64,000 bases of DNA from Acidimicrobiales bacterium (GTDB lineage: Bacteria > Actinomycetota > Acidimicrobiia > Acidimicrobiales > SHLQ01), in NCBI GenBank assembly GCA_020628865.1, contig JAHDEJ010000005.1, positions 1 to 64,000 on the forward strand, given 5' to 3'. Below the pieces are notes generated by a model. That model was not told the DNA's origin. It ran no database searches and worked only from the letters and a program-made list of their open reading frames with translations. Below, one piece after another: positions 42,365 through 47,107 of this stretch. The number at the start of each line of letters is the position of its first letter. The first letter of the stretch is position 1. The position numbers and the translations under genes were made by a program.

Positions 42365-44851
<2,487 letters not shown>

Positions 44852-44892
44852 GCAAACCTCCTCGCACGAGCCCGTCGAGCGGTCTCGCAGAT

Positions 44893-44913
44893 CTTGAGTA
44901 CTCCCCACTCAAC
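44893..44913. promoter_or_regulatory. HAIR-like HspR operator upstream of clpB
   Basis: CTTGAGT-N7-ACTCAAC (44893-44899, spacer ACTCCCC, 44907-44913) matches the HAIR consensus CTTGAGT-N7-ACTCAAG except for the last base. It lies 42 bases upstream of the clpB ATG in the 107-base divergent gap shared with the selenoprotein gene at 44959. HspR is encoded at 45793-46182. Binding and repression are inferred from the consensus. Confidence 0.8.
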
Positions 44914-44958
44914 TTCTGAGTGCTTGCCCCTATTCCCCCCGGCGAGCAGAATCAGCGC

Positions 44959-45801
44959 ATGTCACGCACCCATCGATCCACCATCAGTTACATCGATCGG
45001 TCTCGGGACTACTACGCCGCCCAAGGGTACTCGCAGCCGTACAAGTGGGCAGCCAACACGGACGCGCCGTTCACCCCACTCCCCCGCCCGTTGAACGAGT
45101 GTCGAGTCGGTGTCGTCACCACCACCAAGCGACATGCCGACGATCCGCTGCAGCCGTTTGCGGCCGCGTCGAGTCCGCAGCCGACGGAGATGGCCACAGA
45201 TCACCTCCACTGGCATCAGGAAGCCACGCACACCAACGACGTCGGATCGTTCCTTCCACTCGATCACCTGCAGACCCTGGTTGATGAAGGACGGATCGGA
45301 TCCGTCAGCCCCCGCTACTACAGCGTCTCCACCATCTACAGCCAGCGGCGAACCATCACCTGGGCTGAACAGGTCCGCGAATGGGCCGTCGAGGACGGTG
45401 TCGACGCCATGCTGCTCGTGCCGCTTTGACCGGTCTGCCATCAGACGGTCGGTCTGACCGCACGCCACCTCGAAGCTGCAGGAATTCCCACCCTGATCAT
45501 CGGATCCGCACGCGACATCATCGAGGAGAACGCGGTCCCGCGATTCGTGTTCACCAACCTGCCACTCGGCAACCCCATCGGCCCCGCCGACGACGGCGAT
45601 CAGCAGCTCGACGTACTCCGTCTCGCCTGCGACGTCTTTGCGTCGGCCACACTCCCGCAGACCACGGTGCAGGCACCGGTCGTCTGGTCCGGCCGCCCGG
45701 ACTGGCGAGACAGCTTCATGCCGATCGATGACGCCGATGCACTCCGTCGGGCCGGCGAGGAACGCCGGGCCGAGCAGGCTGCAGCGAAACGGTCAGGATG
45801 A
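44959..45801 (+). CDS. GrdB/PrdB-like selenoprotein (glycine/sarcosine/betaine reductase B family); in-frame TGA read as Sec
   Basis: This is a single 280-residue protein if TGA 45427-45429 (codon 157) is read as selenocysteine. Two adjacent in-frame ORFs (44959-45429 and 45430-45801) give a continuous product. The sequence before TGA is DAMLLVPL, then U-PVCHQTVGLTARHLEAAGI, a U-x-x-C-H motif. The family (selenoprotein B of glycine/sarcosine/betaine or proline reductase type) carries Sec or Cys there. Downstream FTNLPLGNPIG is a family-type block. A SECIS-like stem-loop follows at 45446-45460. It overlaps the last 9 bases of hspR convergently. It shares a 107-base divergent gap with clpB, which includes the HAIR element. 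Substrate is unknown; the redox role is inferred. Confidence 0.9.
45427..45460 (+). promoter_or_regulatory. Putative bacterial SECIS element for Sec insertion
   Basis: After the UGA (45427-45429), 21 nt lead to a GGUCU pentaloop (45451-45455) held by a perfect 5-bp stem CGGUC/GACCG (45446-45450, 45456-45460). The E. coli fdhF SECIS has a similar GGUCU apical loop about 19-20 nt after UGA (from memory of that element). The position and loop sequence together support SelB-dependent decoding. Confidence 0.8.
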
Positions 45802-46182
45802 CTCTCGCTTGTAGAGCGTGACGGTCTGGCGGAGTGGAACCAGGTCTCGGCGGTAGCGCTGTTGTGTTTCGCGAATCGCGTCGCTGACTTCCCCGTCGTG
45901 TGAGGACTGCACGGCATGGAGCTCGGCCTCGAGCTGCGCCACGCGCCGCTCCAGTTCAAGAATGCGTTTGACACCGACGAGATTCATCCCTTCGGAGGTG
46001 AGTTCGGCGATGCGGCGCAACAGCTGCACGTCCTCATCGCTGTAGCGACGGTTGCCGCCTCCGGTCCGAGCCGGTGACACCAGGCCCTTGCGCTCGTAGA
46101 TGCGCAGGGTCTGGGGATGCATGCCGCTCAGTTCTGCGGCCACCGAGATGACGTAGACCGCCTTCTTGGATCCCGCAGCCAT
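45793..46182 (-). CDS. hspR: Heat-shock repressor HspR (MerR family)
   Basis: The 129-residue protein has an N-terminal MerR-type winged helix (YVISVAAELSGMHPQTLRIYERKGLVSP, about 9-36; GGGNRRYSDEDVQLLRRIAELT, about 41-63) and a coiled-coil tail (ILELERRVAQLEAELHAVQSS). HspR represses dnaK, clpB and its own operon by binding HAIR sites, with DnaK as co-repressor in actinobacteria (established). HAIR-like sites are present at 44893-44913 and 49637-49657. It is the last gene of the dnaK-grpE-dnaJ-hspR operon, overlapping the selenoprotein stop by 9 bases on the opposite strand. Confidence 0.96.
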   Translation of the reverse strand: MAAGSKKAVYVISVAAELSGMHPQTLRIYERKGLVSPARTGGGNRRYSDEDVQLLRRIAELTSEGMNLVGVKRILELERRVAQLEAELHAVQSSHDGEVSDAIRETQQRYRRDLVPLRQTVTLYKRESS

Positions 46183-46183
46183 C

Positions 46184-47107
46184 TCAGACCCCGAGTTCCG
46201 AACGCGGCGCCGGCTCGCTCACATCGGCGAGTTTCTCGATCAACGATCGTTCTTCCGCAGAGACCTCGGACGGGACGTGCACGTTGACCGTGACCAGGAG
46301 ATCACCGGTCTGGCTTCCGCTCATCACGCCGCGGCCGCGGATTCGCAGGACCTTGCCGGAGGGTGTCCCGGGTGGGATCCGAACCGTGACGGTGGTACCG
46401 GCCAATGTGGGCACCTTGATGTCCGCTCCCAGCGCAGCTTCGGCGAACGTCACCGGAACGGTGACCAGGAGATTGGCGCCGTCGCGCTCGAAGATGGCGT
46501 GGGCGGTGATCGTGATGGTGACGAGCAGGTCCCCGGCGTCGCCGCCGTCGGATGACGGGGCACCCTTGCCCGGAACACGAATTCGTTGCCCGTTGCTCAC
46601 GCCAGCCGGAATTCGCACGTTGACTTCCATCGGTTGACGCAGCACTTCCGATGTCAGCCGCACGGTCTTGGTCACGCCTTGCACGGCCTCTTCGAACGAG
46701 AGGGTCAACCGCGCTTGCAGATCCATGCCGGGCATCGGGCCGAAACCGCCGAAACCACGGCCACCGCGAGCGGCGCCGCCGCCGAACAGGCCACCGAGGA
46801 GATCGGAAAGGTCACCCAGGTCTCCCGGGCCATCGGCACCACGCGGGTTGTAGCCACCGAATCCGCCGCCACCGAGGCGACGGAACTCGTCGTAGCGCTT
46901 CCGGATCTTCTCGTCCCCGATGACGTCATTGGCCGCGGAGATCTCCTTGAACCGCTCCTCGGCTTTCGCGTCACCCTGGTTCGTGTCCGGGTGATACTTG
47001 CGAGCGAGGGTGCGATACGCCTTCGAGATCTCCTTGGCGGAGGCCTTCGAATCCACACCGAGCACGGCGTAGTAGTCCTTCTCCAGCCATTCACGTTGTG
47101 TGTCCAT
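46184..47107 (-). CDS. dnaJ: J-domain co-chaperone without zinc fingers (CbpA/type II DnaJ)
   Basis: The 307-residue DnaK co-chaperone has a J domain (about 9-77) with ARKYHPDTN carrying the HPD motif, a Gly/Phe-rich region (about 80-130) and C-terminal substrate-binding domains (about 130-295; DLQARLTLSFEEAVQG, IPPGTPSGKVLRIRGRG). The four CxxCxGxG zinc repeats of classical DnaJ are absent, so it is type II, like CbpA or DnaJ2. The start is ATG 47107, with GGAGG 6 nt upstream, rather than the GTG one codon earlier. It lies 41 bases after grpE and just before hspR. Confidence 0.94.
   Translation of the reverse strand: MDTQREWLEKDYYAVLGVDSKASAKEISKAYRTLARKYHPDTNQGDAKAEERFKEISAANDVIGDEKIRKRYDEFRRLGGGGFGGYNPRGADGPGDLGDLSDLLGGLFGGGAARGGRGFGGFGPMPGMDLQARLTLSFEEAVQGVTKTVRLTSEVLRQPMEVNVRIPAGVSNGQRIRVPGKGAPSSDGGDAGDLLVTITITAHAIFERDGANLLVTVPVTFAEAALGADIKVPTLAGTTVTVRIPPGTPSGKVLRIRGRGVMSGSQTGDLLVTVNVHVPSEVSAEERSLIEKLADVSEPAPRSELGV

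Follow-up and report, generated by a model that had tools for sequence, protein, structure and literature searches.

A gene in the genome of an Acidimicrobiales bacterium contains a mid-gene UGA that is almost certainly read as selenocysteine (Sec), and by sequence comparison its product is a genuine UxxC selenoprotein of the PrdB/GrdB superfamily. We favor, with a probability of roughly 0.55, a translated stand-alone selenoprotein that would use PrdB/GrdB-like chemistry without a pyruvoyl subunit. At somewhat less than even odds, we also propose that the SECIS hairpin behind the UGA occurs in two overlapping registers that were repeatedly switched, with bistable copies as intermediates, in what would be a widespread stand-alone PrdB-like enzyme with an uncharacterised reductive reaction. 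The UGA is assigned to Sec because the TGA is conserved, Cys replaces it in some homologues, the host has the Sec machinery, and the hairpin is selected beyond the protein sequence. The features are compiled in Table 1; the window is the whole stretch of 64,000 nucleotides that was analysed.

Table 1. Features around the selenoprotein gene (positions in the window)
Feature	Position	Strand	Remarks
clpB	42365..44852	-	83-87% identity to relatives; upstream of the selenoprotein gene
HAIR-type HspR operator, CTTGAGT-N7-ACTCAAC	44893..44913	.	in the divergent gap between clpB and the selenoprotein gene; 1 mismatch to CTTGAGT-N7-ACTCAAG
Candidate stand-alone PrdB/GrdB-like selenoprotein gene	44959..45801	+	280 aa, Sec157
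In-frame UGA, almost certainly Sec157	45427..45429	+	TGA in all Sec-type homologues compared; Sec machinery in the genome
Cys160, second residue of the UxxC redox motif	45436..45438	+	invariant in subfamily A; aligned with the Cys of PrdB UGTCHR
SECIS register H1, UCAGAC-[GGUCG]-GUCUGA	45441..45457	+	family-wide register, minimum-free-energy fold
Alternative SECIS register H2, CGGUC-[GGUCU]-GACCG	45446..45460	+	hairpin of the sequence-only reading
hspR (MerR-type repressor)	45793..46182	-	9-bp overlap with the selenoprotein gene at the 3' ends

Conservation of the UGA codon and the selenocysteine machinery

The sole interruption of the 280-codon frame is the TGA at codon 157, and TGA is also the terminal codon. 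The sequence-only reading had described two same-frame open reading frames parted only by this TGA, which was confirmed in the translation, where codon 157 lies in the context DAMLLVPL-U-PVCHQTVGLTARH with the expected U-x-x-C-H motif. The start at the ATG at 44959 matches the N-termini of the orthologues (MTKAHRTFVSYIDKSREYYAAQGY). Standard gene callers take codon 157 as the end of the protein, and the active site is thereby lost.

The same TGA was found in 130 homologues, comprising 50 Acidimicrobiia sequences and the best 80 of 278 GTDB loci, with a few genomes in both sets. The 50 sequences stem from this genome (G000) and its Acidimicrobiia relatives and represent three subfamilies. The GTDB loci were taken by score, so that rarer Cys forms are perhaps under-sampled; 80 of these best 80 have the TGA, and they belong to Actinomycetota, Myxococcota, Thermodesulfobacteriota, Chloroflexota, Pseudomonadota (among them Burkholderiales), SAR324, Acidobacteriota, and others. 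These homologues were recovered from the GTDB contigs with the alignment as query, unlike in a peptide-pattern scan with the single protein as query, which gave no match. Both halves around the TGA are conserved, with invariant residues on either side.

Among the sequences compared, TGC (Cys) occupies the Sec codon only in one Acidimicrobiia copy (L025, motif PHCPVCHQ) and in two Alphaproteobacteria plasmid copies (L164 and L165; NCPVCHQ in Roseomonas and NCPICHQ in Haematobacter), and besides Sec, Cys is the sole residue seen at this position. The sequence-only reading had proposed that the gene encodes Sec and belongs to the GrdB/PrdB superfamily, with Sec or Cys at this site, and had named an alignment of Cys and Sec homologues as a check. 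With TGA in 130 homologues, TGC in three, and Sec or Cys at codon 157 throughout the alignment, this proposal holds. A reading of the TGA as Trp was discarded, as no TGG occurs at the site and Cys is found there instead. The L025 copy is nested among Sec copies, and Sec was therefore probably lost there; its genome (G057) has a subfamily A gene of each type, this Cys form and the Sec form L062. The Roseomonas (WP_207415257) and Haematobacter (WP_035710215) proteins, assigned to the selenoprotein B family at NCBI with Cys (TGC) in place of Sec, show 37-42% identity; together with L062, a relative with Sec, they form a clade beside subfamily A.

The host genome is a 5.36 Mb draft of 113 contigs with 95.9% completeness. 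It had been predicted to encode SelA, SelB, SelC, and SelD, and all were detected: a tRNA-Sec with a TCA anticodon, which at 65 bits passes the Rfam cut-off; selA (380 bits) with selB (281 bits) immediately after it; and selD (359 bits). The SelD protein (L042, G000:C106:117069) is itself a selenoprotein, with an in-frame TGA in GAGUGCK. Among the relatives, tRNA-Sec is present in 28/31 genomes with a homologue, compared to 16/28 without one (Fisher p 0.006).

Two registers of the SECIS hairpin

A 5-bp stem with a GGUCU loop 21 nt after the UGA had been put forward as the SECIS. This hairpin (H2) does exist, with pairing of +17..+21 with +27..+31, its stem 16 nt and its loop 21 nt downstream of the UGA, but it is not the family-wide SECIS. 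It is H1 that covaries instead, which lies 4 nt upstream of H2. Its 5-bp core, CAGAC-GGUCG-GUCUG at 45442-45456, is formed by +13..+17 and +23..+27, counted from the UGA (45442-45446 with 45452-45456). The window copy is able to form both. Folding with RNAfold, which had been suggested beforehand, agreed with a hairpin downstream of the UGA, but preferred H1 (45441-45457) over the GGUCU hairpin as the minimum-free-energy fold. An Rfam scan of 44000-47000 returned only chance matches well under the gathering scores.

In the 48 distinct sequences, H1 pairing held in 95.8% of cells, and 28 changes were two-sided, a result that 0/500 shuffles equalled, and H2 pairing across all 48 was no better than in shuffles. 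Copies with a broken H1 mostly retain an intact H2, and the 101 distinct 33-mers divide into 73 with H1 only, 13 with H2 only, 11 with both, and 4 with neither. H2-only copies are found in close relatives of the window gene (L010, L011, L015, and L016), in subfamily B, and also in Dehalococcoidia and a groundwater deltaproteobacterium, where the stem is a different one (CCGUG/CACGG). A full stem in either register was present in 48/48 distinct Acidimicrobiia sequences, compared to 8.4 expected from synonymous codons at genome usage, taken from eleven stretches in the window. On the tree, which for this purpose was a quick tree with some long branches, accounting for the H2-only state takes 9 changes, and a comparison of independent pairs favored the expected direction by 6.2 to 0.1 (median p 0.03, range 0.008-0.22). 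By these comparisons, the GGUCU hairpin represents another register that has taken the place of H1 in several lineages. None of the Cys copies has a full H1; H2 pairing persists in the Haematobacter copy, either by chance or through descent.

The GGUCU apical loop of H2 is that of the E. coli fdhF SECIS, and its spacing from the UGA is similar. The family-wide H1 differs from this fdhF element in its loops (e.g., CGUGA, GGUCG, or AGUUG), which lie 4 nt nearer to the UGA than the loop of H2. If repeated switching is true, SelB would tolerate a sliding distance between UGA and loop, and a SECIS inside a strongly conserved coding sequence could be replaced while the protein changes little or not at all. 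The register switch would then be a natural experiment on hairpin recognition by SelB. It is the newest element of this work, and no description of it was found in the accessible portions of the literature on such selenoproteins.

Family, distribution, and predicted structure

The window protein matches the PrdB profile TIGR04483 with an E value of 1e-19, but with 70.9 bits against a curated cut-off of 300. An hhalign comparison with a profile of three annotated PrdB proteins gave 99.9% (E 4e-32), with UPVCHQ aligned on UGTCHR. It shares with PrdB of Clostridia, Enterococcus, and Ligilactobacillus a homology of ~210 residues, the Sec/Cys in U/C-x-x-C-H, and a size of 26-31 kDa. It differs in having UPVCHQ and not UGTCHR, in lacking the MGGGG stretch, and in its extra N- and C-terminal extensions; its gene is without prdA, prdC, and CBO2463 neighbors, belongs to a clade of its own, and occurs beyond Stickland fermenters. 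With GrdB/GrdF/GrdH (PF07355), homology covers the C-terminal half (TIGR01918 29 bits, PF07355 21 bits) and the UxxC is shared, but these proteins have about 430 residues compared to about 280, the scores are below the curated cut-offs (29.3 vs 65.45 bits and 21.4 vs 22 bits, respectively), and no GrdA, GrdE, or GrdC-type operon was found.

In the tree, subfamily A (102 rows), to which the window protein belongs, stands apart from subfamilies B and C and from PrdB, with long branches that leave its exact join with PrdB unsure. Subfamily A is found in only 11/295 sampled members of the class Acidimicrobiia and is patchy across phyla outside the class, which suggests that loss and transfer shaped its distribution.

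The AlphaFold model has a pLDDT of 91, and its helix 158-173 starts right after Sec157. A sequence search of the PDB found no relative of the window protein and none of PrdB, and Foldseek against the PDB gave nothing at E <= 0.001. With VIA-align, LacI/periplasmic-binding and SDR folds reached Z values as high as 9; as this is a common arrangement, we do not claim a fold family.

A possible working mode and its redox alternative

From the comparative evidence, SelB and tRNA-Sec would decode the UGA as Sec, directed by a hairpin that starts 12-17 nt downstream. The product would be a soluble alpha/beta protein acting on its own, in which Sec157 sits at the N-terminal end of a helix and is followed three residues later by Cys160. 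Attack by a selenolate is established for PrdB/GrdB enzymes. The selenolate of the window protein might likewise attack an electrophilic small substrate, as GrdB/PrdB do at a C-N bond, and a Se-bound intermediate or a selenenic form could be resolved by Cys160 as a selenylsulfide, which thioredoxin or a low-molecular-weight thiol would then re-reduce. Working without a pyruvoyl subunit, the protein would use substrates without a need of Schiff-base activation. Since the fold search gave no clear solved relative, catalysis was deduced from the motif and homology alone, and a PrdB/GrdB-like working mode is what the protein may have. A useful precedent by analogy is the FarB/FarE pair proposed for fluoroacetate reduction, in which, according to the part of the report available to us, a GrdB-like selenoprotein has a partner without the pyruvoyl-forming cysteines (PMC10838667).

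It is rather unlikely, though the best of the alternatives, that the translated selenoprotein is instead a thiol-dependent peroxide, disulfide, or selenylsulfide reductase in oxidative or electrophile stress, with a substrate unrelated to that of PrdB. The UxxC at the start of a modeled helix is typical of redox motifs, the gene is found in lineages outside the Stickland-fermenting clostridia, and the Roseomonas Cys form adjoins a SelO gene, but fold searches recognised no thioredoxin-type fold, and no oxidative-stress neighbor recurs in the loci examined. The Roseomonas locus lies on a plasmid of Roseomonas haemaphysalidis (L164:5965-8350), where the neighbor is annotated as protein adenylyltransferase SelO.

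The location next to clpB and hspR

The placement between clpB and hspR with a HAIR-containing divergent gap is present in the window as had been described, and downstream of the selenoprotein gene hspR, dnaJ, grpE, and dnaK all lie on the minus strand. The suggested link to heat-shock control fared less well. That the gene encodes a heat-shock-linked redox protein under HspR control via the shared HAIR, which would be compatible with either enzymatic reading, is improbable. The operator has a single mismatch, and in seven relatives of the genus the gene has stayed close to clpB, hspR, or both, with variable orientation and, in some, additional intervening genes; however, the divergent gap with HAIR is shared only by the window, L050, and L051. 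In L045, L047, and L048, other genes put ~3 kb between the selenoprotein gene and HAIR, and in L049, HAIR faces the 3' end of the gene. Neither clpB nor hspR was found near the gene in G001 or, among the loci examined, outside the genus. An HspR regulon as a conserved property was therefore rejected, as the upstream HAIR is not conserved in the orthologues; HspR regulation is a local possibility, and the HAIR box, which remains with clpB in the relatives, probably belongs to that gene.

Partner genes and the amino-acid reductases

Still less probable is a genuine amino-acid reductase subunit, PrdB or GrdB, acting in a D-proline or glycine/sarcosine/betaine reductase whose pyruvoyl partner is encoded elsewhere. 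Homology extends over the length of PrdB, the UxxCH motif is kept, and relatives are annotated at NCBI as "glycine/sarcosine/betaine reductase selenoprotein B family protein". However, the PF09338 profile (PrdA/GrdE) had no match in G000, whereas it readily matched the prd plasmid of Enterococcus gilvus used as a positive control. PF04723 (GrdA) had no match in G000 and none in any control genome either, and the absence of PrdA and GrdA, judged from a 113-contig draft, is not fully proven. The true PrdB genes of Enterococcus and Ligilactobacillus adjoin prdA, whereas in the loci examined prdA is never adjacent to a window-type gene and no partner gene is conserved in the neighborhoods. Recurring neighbors (an alpha/beta hydrolase, acyl-CoA enzymes, a GGDEF-EAL protein, and a succinyl-CoA-ligase-like protein) are each limited to 1-2 lineages. 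With no PrdA/GrdE- or GrdA-type gene found, no conserved partner, and a clade separate from PrdB, albeit with long branches and an unsure join, an identity as D-proline reductase was rejected, and one as glycine reductase is improbable.

A pseudogene, a sequencing error, or two proteins ended and restarted at the TGA, which is formally a stop between two open halves, can be dismissed on the comparative data, namely the same TGA in 130 relatives of several phyla, the conserved halves, the conserved SECIS, and the full Sec machinery.

Relation to marine "PrdB" and further observations

PrdB-like selenoproteins are already known and have been reported as abundant in ocean metagenomes. In the parts of the reports accessible to us, UxxC selenoproteins of the PrdB type ranked among the most common in the Sargasso Sea in 2005, with 42 genes (PMC1088965), and in the Global Ocean Sampling of 2008, with 235 "PrdB" sequences (PMC2398784); D-proline reductase TIGR04483 also appears as UxxC in a review of 2026 (PMC13188914). 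In the passages available, the surface-ocean "PrdB", which has UxxC like the window protein, is treated as proline reductase in the first two (PMC1088965, PMC2398784). It is very likely of the same kind as subfamily A, the likeness being drawn from description and not from sequence. Among the papers searched, none contained both selenoproteins and Acidimicrobi-. This widespread "PrdB" is classed as proline reductase even though no partner subunit was found here, and a correct description makes testable the question of what PrdB does without PrdA.

G000 also contains two UGA paralogues ~6 kb apart on contig C44 (about 145.7-152.9 kb), one of subfamily B with PVUPVCHQ (L044:6666-7592, minus strand) and one of subfamily C with PIUPACTR and about 377 aa (L044:12744-13874, plus strand). 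A DMSP-lyase/cupin-like gene (L044:9734-10285, minus strand) lies in the gene run upstream of the subfamily B paralogue. The proteins of L142, titled Desulfurellaceae, and L147, titled Candidatus Binatia, are nearly identical, and one of the two organism titles is probably wrong. In L065 (G042:C15:26300-27043), a member of subfamily B, the motif reads UPLDHQ, in which Sec is kept and the second residue of the UxxC, Cys, is changed to Asp.
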